NCBI GenBank assembly: GCA_017406745.1
Contig: JAFQXY010000008.1
Span: 1-32,884 of the forward strand
Direction: 5' to 3'
Length of the DNA: 32,884 nucleotides
DNA from: Candidatus Saccharimonadota bacterium
GTDB taxonomy: Bacteria; Patescibacteriota; Saccharimonadia; Saccharimonadales; Saccharimonadaceae
The first letter of the stretch is position 1. The number at the start of each line of letters is the position of its first letter. A program made the position numbers and the translations under genes. Below the pieces are notes generated by a model, which made no database searches, had not been told where the DNA came from, and was given only the letters and a program-made list of their open reading frames with translations. Shown here in pieces: positions 2 through 32,884 of this stretch.

Positions 2-601
2 GCCACGCTTAGAGACACCAGAAGTACAGGGTATAACTATACCGTAGCCAAAATAGGTAATTTATGCTGGATGACACAAAATCTCATGCTAGGTAGTAGC
101 TCTACCGTAGCTCTCACTAGCGCCACTAGTAATGTCTCCTCCTCTGGCTACACCCTCCCAGCTAGAGGCACATCCGGAACTAGCTATAGTGGCCAGTATG
201 TTTGGGGTAATGATACGCAATGTACTAGCAGTAGTACCACTGCCTGTGCTGGCTATTATTCATACGCTACTGCTACAGCAGGCACTAATCCATCCAGTGG
301 CACATCTAGCTACGACATCTGCCCAGCAAACTGGCGACTACCTACATCAGCAGAACTAACTACCCTTGAAAAGACCTATACTTCAGGCGCCACTTTAACA
401 GCCAGTCCCTTCCTTGGCGTCTACGCCGGCCGCTACAACAATAGCTCGTTCTACGATGGCGGGTCGGTCGGCTACTACTGGTCGTCTACTGCCTACAATA
501 GTAGCCTCGCCGACCGCCTGTACTTCGGTAGTAGTAGTGCCGGTATCAACGGCACCACTAAGTACTACGGGTACTCTATCCGTTGTGTGGCTAAGTCTTA
601 G
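2..601 (+). CDS. FISUMP-domain surface protein, C-terminal part (5' end outside window)
   Basis: The reading frame is open to the left edge, so the Met at 71 is internal and this is only the last 199 codons. The visible part is one complete FISUMP (Fibrobacter succinogenes major paralogous) domain. It opens with DTRSTGYNYTVAKIGNLCWM, continues with the DICPANWRLPTSAEL block, and closes with GYYWSS, LYF and YSIRCV. The fold is C-type-lectin-like, and such domains are found on surface or adhesive proteins. No LPXTG or C-terminal anchor follows; the protein stops 4 residues after RCV. From about 415 to 594 the codons are strongly NNC (TAC, GCC, GGC, CGC, CTC, GTC, GAC), unlike the first half. 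Such C-terminal lectin modules are frequent diversity-generating retroelement targets. The family call is firm; the ligand is unknown. Confidence 0.85.
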   Translation, partial: ATLRDTRSTGYNYTVAKIGNLCWMTQNLMLGSSSTVALTSATSNVSSSGYTLPARGTSGTSYSGQYVWGNDTQCTSSSTTACAGYYSYATATAGTNPSSGTSSYDICPANWRLPTSAELTTLEKTYTSGATLTASPFLGVYAGRYNNSSFYDGGSVGYYWSSTAYNSSLADRLYFGSSSAGINGTTKYYGYSIRCVAKS

Positions 602-615
602 CCGTCCGCCCCTAA

Positions 616-640
616 GCTACCAAAACTTTTGGCAGGTAGC
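616..640 (+). other. Hairpin just after the FISUMP stop codon
   Basis: GCTACC (616-621) pairs with GGTAGC (635-640), and the AAAA/TTTT inside can extend the stem. The following T-tract is poor, so this could be a weak terminator or the small hairpin sometimes found next to variable regions of diversity-generating retroelements. The sequence does not decide between them. Confidence 0.4.
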
Positions 641-680
641 CACACGTACTTTTCTAGCATCAAGTATGATTTAAGCAAGA

Positions 681-981
681 CCAAACAACCCAATTTACCT
701 ACATTGAATAAGCCCAGCATCCTTATCATTGCAAGATTAATCCCAAGCCATTTTAAACAATAAAAAGTGCGAACCAGACTAATTTTTACAACAGTTACAG
801 ATGAGTATCCTGTACTGTAATACAGGTACGAATCTGCCTAACTGTTGTGAAAATTATTACTGCGTGAGCACTTCTGTTTAAAATGGCTTGGATTGATCTC
901 AAAAGATAATTTCAATGCCTACCTAAAATTATTATTTTTTATTAGGCGCGAAGTGAACCGTAGGTGAATTGGGTTGTTTGG
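681..981. repeat. 301-bp imperfect hairpin element with 22-bp terminal inverted repeats (MITE-like)
   Basis: Positions 681-702 and 960-981 are inverted repeats matching at 21 of 22 bases, beginning CCAAACAACCCAATT. Inside, CCAAGCCATTTTAAACA near 753 pairs with TGTTTAAAATGGCTTGG near 875. Further in, 781-796 pairs with 841-856 (15 of 16), and at the tip CCTGTA pairs with TACAGG around 809-825. The whole unit therefore folds back on itself with asymmetric loops. It carries no credible ORF and ends 5 bases from the cysS stop. A non-autonomous transposon fits best; a structured RNA is possible. I see no clear target-site duplication. Together with the hairpin at 616-640 it fills the gene-free stretch 602-986. 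Confidence 0.65.
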
Positions 982-986
982 TATTT

Positions 987-16175: not shown

Positions 16176-18140
16176 ATGTTTAAATGGGCATGGCGTCAGA
16201 AAAACGAAGCAGAACGCGAAATATTTTCACCTAACAACCGCATCAAATGCGTCTTTAATCTCAAGAACAGTCAAGTTTTTTATCGTGTCTACAAAAATGA
16301 CAAGCTCATTATAAAACCATCGCGCCTAGGGTTTGTAGTTTGTGGTGAAACACCACTTAAAGACCAGCTAAGCCTAGTTCGCACCACCACCAAAAAGCAC
16401 AACGAAACCATTGAGCTACTTTGGGGCGAAGATCACCTCATCCCAAACAATTATTCCGAGTCCGCGTTTTTCTTGGCCGAAAGCAAAAACTCCCGTCGTC
16501 TTTACACTATACGTTTTAGGGTATTTGATAATGGAGTGGCTTTTCGCTACGAAATACCACCTCAGCCCAAGTTTCAGCGCATTACTATAGCAGATGAACT
16601 CACTGAGTTTAACCTAGACCTTAATACTACAGCTTGGAAAATTCCCGCCTATCAGCCAGATCGTTACGAATACAGTTATGAAAAAAGCGCCGTTTACGAT
16701 TTACGTCGCCCAGTACATACTCCACTTACCCTCCGCACCCCAAACGGCTACTATCTTAGTATCCACGAAGCATCTTTATATAATTATGGTGCAATGACTA
16801 TTCAGCTCAATCAAAACCAAGTTTTGCAATCTGATATCACCCCGCTTTCGGACGGCACACGCGCCCACGTAGATTTGCCGTTTCAAACCCCTTGGCGCCT
16901 CATCATGATTGCCGATTCCGCTATTGAACTTACTACCAATCGACTTATTTATGCACTCAACGACCCTCCATCCGCAGATTTTAGTTGGGTCAAACCCCTC
17001 AAGTTTATCGGAATATGGTGGGCAATGTACGTAGGTGAGTGGACTTGGGCCCCAGGCGAACGTCACGGGGCCACCACAGAACACGCCAAAGAATATATCG
17101 ACTCTGCCACTAGGCTTGGCATTTCGGGTCTCTTGATAGAGGGTTGGAATGATGGCTGGGAGGGAGATTGGCTTAAAAATGGCATCCACAATAATTTCAC
17201 CAATTCCACTCCAGATTTTGATTTTCCTGCCGTAGCGCGCTATGCCACCGCACATAATATCGAACTAGTGGGCCATCATGAAACAGTGGGTTTTATAGAC
17301 AATTACGAAGCCCAAATCGAATCCGCCTATAATTATTACGCCAGTAATAATGTACATTATATTAAAACCGGTTATGCTGGCAGTATGATGACCATAAATG
17401 GTCGCCGTGAATATCATCATTCACAGCTCGGCGTTTTACATTATCAAAAAACCATCGAACTCGCAGCCAAAAAACATATCTGTCTGGATATTCACGAGCC
17501 TATCAAAGGTACTGGCATAGAGCGCACTTGGCCTAATCTACTTAGCCGTGAAGGCGCCCGTGGCCAAGAATACGAAGGTGGCACACTTAGCCCATCACAC
17601 GCTTGTTTTTTGCCGTACACTCGTCTACTTGCCGGCGGTATGGACTATACCAATGGTATTTTTGATTTAGATAATAATGCCAAACGTATTAATACTACAT
17701 TAGCACGCCAAATCGCATATTTTATTACAATTTATTCCGGCATGGCCATGGCAGCAGACCGTCCATTTATTTACGAAGAACGCTTCCCGCAAGTATTTGA
17801 TTTCATTCGTACCGTACCCATAGATTTTGAACGCACGTTACCATTAGCCGGCGAAGTTGGTGAATATTATATAGTAGCACGCCAAGCGCGTGGTTCACAA
17901 GATTGGTATATTGGTGGAGTTGCCGATGAATACGGTCGCCGAGCCACTATTAGCCTAGATTTTTTGCCGGATGGGGCATATTACGCCAAAATTTATTCCG
18001 ACACCCCCGAATCCCACTACCGCGATAACCCATTTGCTATTTCAATATCAGAAAAACACGTAGGCAAAAACGATTTGCTAGACATATTTATTGCACCGGG
18101 CGGCGGTTTTGCTATTCAACTCCGCAAAATTAATCCTTAA
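16176..18140 (+). CDS. Glycoside hydrolase family 97-like alpha-glycosidase
   Basis: A 654-residue protein with the GH97 layout. An N-terminal beta-sandwich spans about 1-270. The TIM barrel begins at FIGIWWAMYVGEWTWAPG and includes GLLIEGWNDGWEGDW, GHHETVGF, YIKTGYAG, LDIHEPIKGTG and REGARGQEYEGG. A C-terminal beta domain follows. Characterised members (such as SusB) are alpha-glucosidases or alpha-galactosidases. Unlike secreted SusB, no signal peptide is visible, so it should act in the cytoplasm. The message appears leaderless. Its 3' end overlaps the convergent sortase gene by 11 bases. The exact substrate is not predictable. Confidence 0.88.
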   Translation: MFKWAWRQKNEAEREIFSPNNRIKCVFNLKNSQVFYRVYKNDKLIIKPSRLGFVVCGETPLKDQLSLVRTTTKKHNETIELLWGEDHLIPNNYSESAFFLAESKNSRRLYTIRFRVFDNGVAFRYEIPPQPKFQRITIADELTEFNLDLNTTAWKIPAYQPDRYEYSYEKSAVYDLRRPVHTPLTLRTPNGYYLSIHEASLYNYGAMTIQLNQNQVLQSDITPLSDGTRAHVDLPFQTPWRLIMIADSAIELTTNRLIYALNDPPSADFSWVKPLKFIGIWWAMYVGEWTWAPGERHGATTEHAKEYIDSATRLGISGLLIEGWNDGWEGDWLKNGIHNNFTNSTPDFDFPAVARYATAHNIELVGHHETVGFIDNYEAQIESAYNYYASNNVHYIKTGYAGSMMTINGRREYHHSQLGVLHYQKTIELAAKKHICLDIHEPIKGTGIERTWPNLLSREGARGQEYEGGTLSPSHACFLPYTRLLAGGMDYTNGIFDLDNNAKRINTTLARQIAYFITIYSGMAMAADRPFIYEERFPQVFDFIRTVPIDFERTLPLAGEVGEYYIVARQARGSQDWYIGGVADEYGRRATISLDFLPDGAYYAKIYSDTPESHYRDNPFAISISEKHVGKNDLLDIFIAPGGGFAIQLRKINP

Positions 18141-29816: not shown

Positions 29817-32800
29817 TTAGCTTGTACGCAAACAGCGTACTGAAAATCCACGATCCTTATCATAATTGTATAGTTCGACTGTGCTTCCATCAAAGACGAG
29901 TGAAACGCCATAGGGGCCAGAATTTCGACCAGATGTCCAAAAATAACCAAATGAGTAAGTGTTATAAATGTAACCAGAGTGATAAAAACCGTCAACCTTT
30001 GAAAGTGAACCATTGGTTTTTAAATCACTCCTCCAGGTACCATTCTCTGCTTCGCTACTATTTGGAAGTCTCCAACCAAGTGGACAGATATCACCTGCAG
30101 AATTTGATGAGTCATTGGAACATGTAGAAGTATTGGATGTAGAATTAGTGCGCGCAGTAGCTGCTGGCCAATTATAATAATACCAACTACCAGATTTTTT
30201 CATACGAGGAATACAATAATCGTCTTGAGTGCTAGACCATGATGAGCTAGGAAGAGTATAATCCGTCTTAACGTTAGAGTCTGCAGTAGTTAGGGTAGTA
30301 CCACCTGGAAGTTGCAAATTACTCGTCATCCATAGTGTTTTTGTGTTCTTGAGAGAAATCATTTTGACGGTGTAACTAATCCCTGTACGTTTGTCTATAA
30401 GTGATGTAGTTTCTCCTACTGCCATATTAGCAAAATCTGTGGAAGAGAAAGATTGCATACTCTTTGGCTCGGGAATAACCCAGGGGGAGGTAGCCGTACC
30501 GCTACCGCTACTTATTTTTGTTCCAGAGATAAGAGAAATCACTGGTCGGACGCCAAATGTGAGGCTCACATTAAAATTGACGAGTCCGCTGCTCGAATAC
30601 AAGCTATATTCAAAAGCGTCACCAGACGGGTGTCGGTAATCTGGAGAAAGAAGCCAGAAGCTCGAGCCAGAATGCAAGTATGAGTTGTAGCTAGAACCGG
30701 AGCCGCCAGCTCCAGCAAAGCTGGCTTCATCGGCAGTAAGAAGAGCGGTGGGGTATTTAAGCTGGTTAGATACACCAGTACTACCAGATACGTAACGGTA
30801 TAAATCTACGGTACTACGTGGACAATTAAGACTAGGCGCTTTAGCAAAGCTACTGTTTCTAATATAAGCACCAAAGTACGCAGTAGCACTAGAAGTAGCG
30901 TATGGTGGGATAGTAGTAAGTGCTGTTGTACCAGTATCATTTGAGAAGACGGAGCGATCATTACAATATCCTGCGCTGGCCTCTAGTTTACTAGTCCAAC
31001 TGGTCATGTTATTTGCATACCAAGTGTCTTCTATGTATTTCTTGATGTTGGAACGTTCATTATTGGTAGATGGGCTAGAATCACTACCAAATACTGTATC
31101 CACGCTAGTAGAAGTGGTAGAATCTTGGAGGCTCTGCGTATTGTTGAATGTGTAACCTACACGGTTGATGTTATAATACCAAGTAGACTGCGCAGAATTA
31201 CCTTTGAGACCAAACGCCTGAGTAGTAAGTTGAGTATTAGTGGTGGCATTGGCACAAGAATTAGCAGTAGTACCACCAGAATAAGAGCCATTATAAATCA
31301 TCTTTACGCCACCACTACCTGTGGTGCGCACTATTCTCCAGCACATATCGCCTAGTTTTACATAGTTTGGATAGTTCATAGAGTTGCCATTACTGCCATA
31401 AGTACTACTGGTACCATCTAGGTCTGTGTCTAGGATACCACGGTAGTAGTAGATAGGATTAGAAGTAGAGGCGTCACTGGCGGTACCAAATACACTGGAG
31501 TTATATGTCCAGACTCCAGAAGTAGCTTTGGTGGGGTTAGTCTTAATACCGGTAGTGGCATTAGTATCATTAGTCTGATTGCCACGAGTAAGAGAAGCTA
31601 CTGCATCATAGAGATTAGCATTGGCGCTAGATCCCCATACGGCATAGAGAGTCATATTGCCTGTAGGAGTGATGGATTGGCTGGGACGATATTCTGGCGA
31701 TGTAGCACTGGAGCTAGTAGCCCAGCCTTTGAAATAGTAGTCAGTTCTAGTGAATGCGTTGTCTGCAAGGGTGATATTACTACCACCTTCTATTGTTTGG
31801 TCCGCTATAGCGCCGGTGCCACCATTAGAATCATATCCAATAGCATAGTGGATAATTTGACTGGCAATAGTTACTGCTCCGTCCCCAGCGCCCATAGTGA
31901 AAGTGGGGTTGGCAACGTTGATAGAACTTAATACACCGTAACTACCAGTGTTGCTCCAACTATCCAGTTCATAATTACTACTAAATATTGGATATAGGTA
32001 ATAACTTGCATTATAAGCAAGTCCGCTAACACTGTCGCCACTGGTAGATATTGTGCCTTTTAAATCGTCGCCAGAGCAATTACCCTCTACGACACAAATT
32101 TTTACACTAGATGTTTTTGCGTCAGCAAAATTAATGATAAGACTATAAGTATTGGCAGTCCACAGAGCATAGAGAGTAGCAGTATTTATGGTATTTTGGT
32201 TTATACTATAAATACCACTTTTGGCATAAGTAGTGCCACTACACGCTGTGCCACTATTAGTGGTAGCCACGCTGCACCAACCAGAGAACATATAACCTGT
32301 TCTAGTGGGGTTGGCGTTGCTTAGAATAATATTGGCGGAGTTAGTAGAGCCGGTAGTGGCAGATGTAGGCATATTACTTACACTACTATCTCCACTATTA
32401 TCACTATAAGTAATGGCATAAGTAATAGGATTACCTACAGCTTGTAATACATAAGTATTGGTATAAGTACCTGCCGCTTGAGTATTATTTGCTTTAGCAG
32501 CTAAGCCTATAGTATAGTTAGTGGCATTACTACTAGCCGATGAAGTAGTAGCACCATTAGCACTAGTAGTAATATCTATAGTAGTACCTGTTGTAGTAGG
32601 GGAAGGTAAGTAATTAGAGTTTGCTGATGAGTTTAGTTTGCTTGGTCTATAGCCCCATGTACCATTAGTGGTAATAGAGGATGAAGCTGAACTAATGGTG
32701 TTTAGGACTGGACAAGTACCAGTGCTTTTACAATTATTATCTATTTCATTAGTTAGTTTACCATCATTATAAGTAGTATTATCTGGACTAGCAATACTTA

Positions 32801-32884
32801 GAGTATAGCCAGTATAGTTAGTAGTAAATACATTGAATGAAAGAGCATTGTCATTGGTTGCTACTGTGCCACTACTATTATTAG
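29817..32884 (-). CDS. Long modular surface protein (Listeria/Bacteroides repeats, RPVISL-type lectin domain, FISUMP); 5' end outside window
   Basis: The frame is open from 32882 to the stop at 29817, about 1021 residues, and runs off the right edge; the Met at 32372 is internal. In order: a Thr/Ser/Asn-rich region; two Listeria_Bacteroides (Flg_new) repeats ending LYALWT and LYAVWG; a domain with YYYRGILD and MCWRIVRTTG; a lectin-like block ending WLLSPD and GVRPVISL; and a C-terminal FISUMP domain (LWMTSNL, DICPLGWRLP, YFWTSGR, GFSVRCL). It is surely extracellular and probably adhesive. No LPXTG or anchor is at the C-terminus. Codons in 30530-30690 differ from those of the repeat region. 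Confidence 0.88.
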   Translation of the reverse strand, partial: NNSSGTVATNDNALSFNVFTTNYTGYTLSIASPDNTTYNDGKLTNEIDNNCKSTGTCPVLNTISSASSSITTNGTWGYRPSKLNSSANSNYLPSPTTTGTTIDITTSANGATTSSASSNATNYTIGLAAKANNTQAAGTYTNTYVLQAVGNPITYAITYSDNSGDSSVSNMPTSATTGSTNSANIILSNANPTRTGYMFSGWCSVATTNSGTACSGTTYAKSGIYSINQNTINTATLYALWTANTYSLIINFADAKTSSVKICVVEGNCSGDDLKGTISTSGDSVSGLAYNASYYLYPIFSSNYELDSWSNTGSYGVLSSINVANPTFTMGAGDGAVTIASQIIHYAIGYDSNGGTGAIADQTIEGGSNITLADNAFTRTDYYFKGWATSSSATSPEYRPSQSITPTGNMTLYAVWGSSANANLYDAVASLTRGNQTNDTNATTGIKTNPTKATSGVWTYNSSVFGTASDASTSNPIYYYRGILDTDLDGTSSTYGSNGNSMNYPNYVKLGDMCWRIVRTTGSGGVKMIYNGSYSGGTTANSCANATTNTQLTTQAFGLKGNSAQSTWYYNINRVGYTFNNTQSLQDSTTSTSVDTVFGSDSSPSTNNERSNIKKYIEDTWYANNMTSWTSKLEASAGYCNDRSVFSNDTGTTALTTIPPYATSSATAYFGAYIRNSSFAKAPSLNCPRSTVDLYRYVSGSTGVSNQLKYPTALLTADEASFAGAGGSGSSYNSYLHSGSSFWLLSPDYRHPSGDAFEYSLYSSSGLVNFNVSLTFGVRPVISLISGTKISSGSGTATSPWVIPEPKSMQSFSSTDFANMAVGETTSLIDKRTGISYTVKMISLKNTKTLWMTSNLQLPGGTTLTTADSNVKTDYTLPSSSWSSTQDDYCIPRMKKSGSWYYYNWPAATARTNSTSNTSTCSNDSSNSAGDICPLGWRLPNSSEAENGTWRSDLKTNGSLSKVDGFYHSGYIYNTYSFGYFWTSGRNSGPYGVSLVFDGSTVELYNYDKDRGFSVRCLRTS

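Follow-up and report, generated by a model that had tools for sequence, protein, structure and literature searches.

A FISUMP-domain gene of a Candidatus Saccharimonadota bacterium as the probable target of a diversity-generating retroelement whose template lies opposite its reverse transcriptase

Positions 410-613 of the window, by which we mean the whole stretch of 32,884 nucleotides analysed here (a small, gut-associated Candidatus Saccharimonadota bacterium, assembly GCA_017406745.1, contig JAFQXY010000008.1), are, as far as sequence can tell, almost certainly the C-terminal variable repeat (VR1) of a FISUMP-domain protein that is diversified by a diversity-generating retroelement (DGR) on another contig (C24) of the genome. 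The assembly spans 693 kb in 40 contigs and is 85% complete, with the window as contig C37; C37 and C24 are assigned to one organism by binning and by the sequence match. A preliminary description of the window had proposed that positions 411-600 are a DGR target. We found that an adenine-biased near-copy of this region does exist in the same genome, beside a DGR reverse transcriptase (RT), and codon style in raw sequence had in this case led to a real site of targeted mutation.

Results

A variable repeat at the end of a FISUMP-domain gene

The left end of the window contains the following features.

2-601, + strand: FISUMP-domain protein gene (the target gene), truncated at its 5' end by the contig edge, stop codon at 599-601.
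410-613, + strand: VR1, a 204-bp ungapped match (85% identity) to the template at C24:6371-6574.
431-568, + strand: core of hypervariable codons, containing every one of the template's 20 AAY codons, of which 16 are changed (N to Y, R, D, V, L, G or T).
569-601, + strand: conserved 3' block, GGGTACTCTATCCGTTGTGTGGCTAAGTCTTAG, a candidate IMH-like end.
602-613, + strand: GC-rich tail after the stop codon, CCGTCCGCCCCT, common to the template, where its counterpart is CCGTACGCCCCT.
616-640, + strand: weak inverted repeat (6-bp stem, 13-nt loop; z -0.20), no more stable than shuffled sequence.

The target gene scored above the curated cut-offs of both TIGR02145 (65.0 bits, cut-off 41.65) and PF09603 (60.8 bits, cut-off 33.9). 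Its frame encodes 199 aa and is open at the contig's left edge, and the N-terminus of the protein is absent from the window. Of the last 63 codons, 35 (56%) have C as third base (GC3 0.71), versus 44 of the preceding 136 (32%, GC3 0.40), which bears out the proposal that codon style changes over the last ~60 codons; the span marked at that time closely coincides with the template-matching span. The further idea that NNC codons are the DGR sites stood in part: the variable codons are mainly the 20 that read AAC or AAT in the template, but C-ending codons are not all variable and the template is itself rich in them. A GC-rich tail after the stop codon had been described and is indeed present; a small hairpin had also been described there, and this did not hold up when its stem (616-621/635-640) was compared with shuffled sequence.

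A genome search with window positions 390-640 returned C24:6371-6574. Adenines of the C24 copy carry 26 of the 31 mismatches between the two repeats (hypergeometric p 8e-12 over the 204 ungapped bases), and AAY codons of the C24 copy are changed in VR1 in 16 of 20 cases, compared with 7 of 48 other codons. Adenines of the window copy bear just two mismatches, so the bias runs one way. Because the adenine bias holds for the C24 copy and the reverse does not, we conclude that C24 carries the template repeat (TR) and the window the variable copy. The block at 569-601 departs from the TR at 571, 573, 574, 589 and 598, at both adenine and non-adenine bases.

Structure prediction for the window FISUMP protein (pLDDT 81, pTM 0.83) revealed the C-terminal domain of Legionella Lcl as the nearest structure (Z 8.9, rmsd 2.5, 99 residues aligned), and many C-type lectins matched below Lcl at Z 5.5-7.5. 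These moderate scores indicate fold resemblance only. VR1 reaches the stop codon of a target that, by this model, resembles a C-type-lectin-like fold. The changed residues (144-191 of the window protein) sit in C-terminal strands and loops according to the DSSP string of the model.

At window 677-985 lies a near-perfect foldback of about 310 bp (RNA fold -131 kcal/mol, z -15.6). Copies occur elsewhere in the genome (e.g., C39:16324-16657, 92%, and C18:12981-13076), and in three places the foldback lies just downstream of a FISUMP gene. It had no match in Rfam and has the appearance of a small mobile element or a palindromic one. The window also encodes, in what is a small genome, a glycoside hydrolase 97 with GH97 N, catalytic and C domains (16176-18140, + strand).

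The template, reverse transcriptase and accessory gene lie on another contig

A PF00078 profile search of the genome found RTs only on C24 and C31, in agreement with the earlier observation that neither a TR nor an RT is visible in the window. The cassette on C24 is arranged as follows.

C24:6371-6574, opposite the RT strand: TR.
C24:6729-7877, - strand: RT gene, 382 aa, its 3' end 155 bases from the repeat end.
Between the RT gene and VR2: accessory gene, 294 aa.
End of C24, - strand: second variable repeat (VR2), 90% identity to the TR, 9/10 mismatches at A, cut by the contig end.

VR2 is thus on the RT strand, and the TR alone is opposite. The RT carries IGNLTSQ, which fits the DGR RT motif definition (I/V/L)GxxxSQ (PMC3521204), and RYVDD with the catalytic YVDD; key residues are invariant among 17 relatives. 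Its family profile best matched, among solved structures, a DGR RT complex (8ub7_A, E 7.9e-44), far above group II intron RTs, and the RT matched phrog_1423 at E 3e-70. The check proposed in the preliminary description, for a near-copy that differs at its adenines and adjoins an RT gene, had therefore returned both; the lack of an adenine-biased copy or of a DGR RT had been named as grounds for giving the claim up, and this genome contains the two of them.

The accessory protein gave nothing convincing when searched by sequence in Pfam, NCBIfam, PHROGs and PDB. An open reading frame of its family adjoins the RT in 72/80 named relatives. In a model of the sister-species accessory protein (pLDDT 92), residues 187-300 matched Avd and S23 folds at Z 13.0-15.9; the seven best rows were Avd or S23-type, and the next, unrelated row had Z 12.4. 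Such Z values alone are not strong for helical bundles, and we assign an Avd-type fold because DGR Avd entries cluster at the top. By fold only, then, the accessory protein is predicted to carry an Avd-type bundle plus an extra N-terminal domain. A MutS-like (MSL) identity was considered for this N-terminal domain, and no search supported it.

A second DGR of ordinary orientation is present in the same genome on C31, with TR and VR both on the RT strand.

C31:2068-2210, RT strand: VR, one half of an adenine-biased pair.
C31:2469-2611, RT strand: TR, 27/28 mismatches at A.
C31:2921-3382: Avd-like open reading frame (Avd match E 0.0027).
C31:3379-4458: RT.

Off-cassette targets in this genome and a sister species

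The RT of a sister species (G005) is 72% identical to that of C24. Its cassette VR differs from the TR at A in 20/21 mismatches, and it also has an off-cassette FISUMP VR with 22/22 mismatches at A over 181 bp, which is part of a gene that extends into a further FISUMP domain. Genomes G033 and G026 yielded no off-cassette VR. In both the present genome (G000) and G005, the off-cassette VR stands at the start of its contig and the cassette VR at the end of its own, so that their physical separation is putative. The gene cysS adjoins VR1; in ten relatives searched, it lies on another contig than known RTs or at least 50 kb from them. C24 and C37 may be directly adjacent across the contig break in this genome.

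Contig C6 begins within a FISUMP end, and its positions 1-65 match the template at 75% with 10/16 mismatches at A and lack the GC-rich tail; this sequence at the contig edge may be a third target or a decayed one. A larger FISUMP-like protein of 1021 aa with List_Bact_rpt repeats is encoded at the opposite end of the window (29817-32882, - strand) and is open at the contig edge, and the template search gave no match there.

Present or former target

We are highly confident, from comparison of the repeats, that VR1 is a DGR target, and much less confident that it is renewed today. Non-adenine mismatches make up 5/31 in VR1 (16%), versus about 6% in related cassettes, a share that may point to an older or rarely renewed target. 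Positions 569-574 read GGGTAC in VR1, GGATTT in the present TR and GGGAAC in the sister-species TR, which would be consistent with a TR altered since its last copying into VR1.

VR1 could accordingly be a former or second-hand target, derived by gene conversion or duplication from a cassette target or homed by an older template, and no longer renewed. We consider this somewhat unlikely, and it would still make VR1 DGR-derived, so that it overlaps with the explanation we prefer. Besides the excess of non-adenine differences and the shift in the template, it is favoured by the short homology after the stop codon (12 bases common to the TR, compared with about 50 for VR2) and by the weakness of the downstream hairpin: stems of at least 7 bp follow 44% of related cassette VRs versus 14% of TRs. 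A perfect-stem scan after VR2 found only 5 bp, and the off-cassette VR of the sister species likewise lacks a strong hairpin and runs on into coding sequence. Yet VR1 retains a very strong adenine bias and has kept the GC-rich tail beyond its stop codon; the part of VR2 that was read before the contig ends is too short to tell if VR1 derives from it.

It is highly improbable that VR1 is merely a FISUMP paralogue under diversifying selection, with compositional C-ending codons and a likeness to C24 that reflects family homology, even though the genome has 24 PF09603 matches and the family is rich in Asn, Ser and Tyr: the near-copy of VR1 adjoins a DGR RT, and other FISUMP paralogues of the genome (alignments of at least 50 nt) are 59-66% identical to the TR and depart from it at all four bases, with 29-45% of mismatches at A, whereas VR1 has 85% DNA identity and 84% of its mismatches at A. 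Because this control shows that family homology alone does not yield the pattern, it was ruled out as the sole cause of the likeness between TR and VR1.

Template layout across Saccharibacteria

RT homologues were found in 24/60 genomes searched (this genome counted), 23 of them in one genus, and a scan of named genomes yielded 80 RT loci, nearly all from Candidatus Saccharibacteria and mostly from ruminant guts. TRs were detected by adenine bias, and TR/VR pairs were accepted at 75% or more; the share of mismatches at A in the named loci (1348/1440) stems partly from this selection. Among the 63 named loci with a detectable TR, 59 have it downstream of the RT on the opposite strand, an arrangement seen in none of the 70 viral DGRs with a TR, in which TR and RT always share a strand and the TR is upstream in 69. 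Of the 63 loci, 47 place the cassette VR upstream on the strand of the RT and 12 have it inverted downstream; VRs overlap FISUMP homology in 49/63. By a quick method, 4 changes suffice to explain the inverted label on an RT tree with 133 rows, compared with a shuffled mean of 44.

Upstream of the C24 TR is a promoter-like TTAACA-18-TATAAT (11/12), of which one such site is expected by chance, and between the TR and the RT is a 12-bp stem with a T run (z -4.24). Because these elements flank the TR, we infer that the template is transcribed separately and convergently to the RT. It is possible rather than probable, and we put it forward tentatively, that Saccharibacteria share a type of DGR across the lineage: its template RNA would be transcribed independently, convergent to the RT and opposite its own cassette target, its accessory protein would join an Avd-fold bundle to another domain, and off-cassette FISUMP genes would be diversified without the usual target hairpin.

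Discussion

From the TR/VR pair and its adenine bias, the RT, the accessory gene, the layout and the fold resemblance, all read from the sequences and models derived from them, a working scheme can be proposed. The TR would be transcribed from a promoter of its own, convergently towards the RT, and a putative terminator between TR and RT would end this separate, non-coding transcript. The RT and the Avd-fold accessory protein would copy this RNA into cDNA, misincorporating opposite adenines, and the cDNA would replace the homologous end of target genes, namely VR2 next to the cassette and VR1 in the window. In this way the template's Asn codons (AAY) would give rise to many different residues, the lectin-like framework would remain constant, and the varied face of the protein, presumably extracellular, would bind something outside the cell. 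The DGR may still be active today, and in this scheme VR1 would have been homed directly rather than through gene conversion from VR2.

Saccharibacteria are small bacteria for which dependence on other cells is generally assumed. Should the varied faces bind the surfaces of host cells or phages, these would be candidate proteins for attachment or escape. The results tie the large FISUMP family of Saccharibacteria to programmed diversification, and the conserved convergent template raises a testable question: how template RNA is produced and matched to the RT and the targets without co-transcription.

Comparison with known systems

The system is like the DGR of Bordetella phage BPP-1 (bRT, Avd, TR and the mtd VR) in its SQ-motif RT, its accessory protein of predicted Avd fold, its adenine-specific change from TR to VR and its C-terminal VR in a lectin-like fold. 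It differs from BPP-1 in that the TR lies downstream of the RT on the other strand, that the accessory protein (about 260-370 aa) includes an additional N-terminal domain, and that the window VR lacks a strong hairpin and is on another contig.

In the group 4 'inverted' DGRs of Shewanella, Vibrio and Photobacterium, TR, VR and target lie together opposite the RT (Schillinger et al. 2012, PMC3521204), and the RT-inverted pattern has also been counted elsewhere (PMC6642488). As in group 4, TR and RT are on different strands here, so that template RNA and RT mRNA would be separate transcripts; unlike in group 4, most cassette VRs share the strand of the RT, and the TR alone is inverted. On C24, VR2 is on the RT strand, which sets this cassette apart from the group 4 arrangement, while VR and TR are both opposite the RT, as in group 4, in the 12 loci with an inverted downstream VR.

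Roux et al. 2021 (PMC8144416) describe an enrichment of DGRs in CPR and a clade, clade 2, that is restricted to Patescibacteria. The DGR described here resembles clade 2 as a cellular DGR of CPR bacteria, and we make no claim that its RT belongs to that clade; in the main text of that study, the words FISUMP, strand and orientation are absent. No paper containing both 'diversity-generating retroelement' and 'FISUMP' was found in a literature of incomplete coverage.

The use of remote target genes recalls Treponema denticola (PMC4891356), where one TR/RT core likewise serves extra targets elsewhere in the genome; the targets there are of the FGE-sulfatase type, whereas here they are FISUMP proteins. 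Precedents thus exist for DGRs in CPR, for remote targets and for strand-separated TRs, and the conserved layout, with the TR downstream of and opposite the RT, is possibly, and provisionally, the new part.
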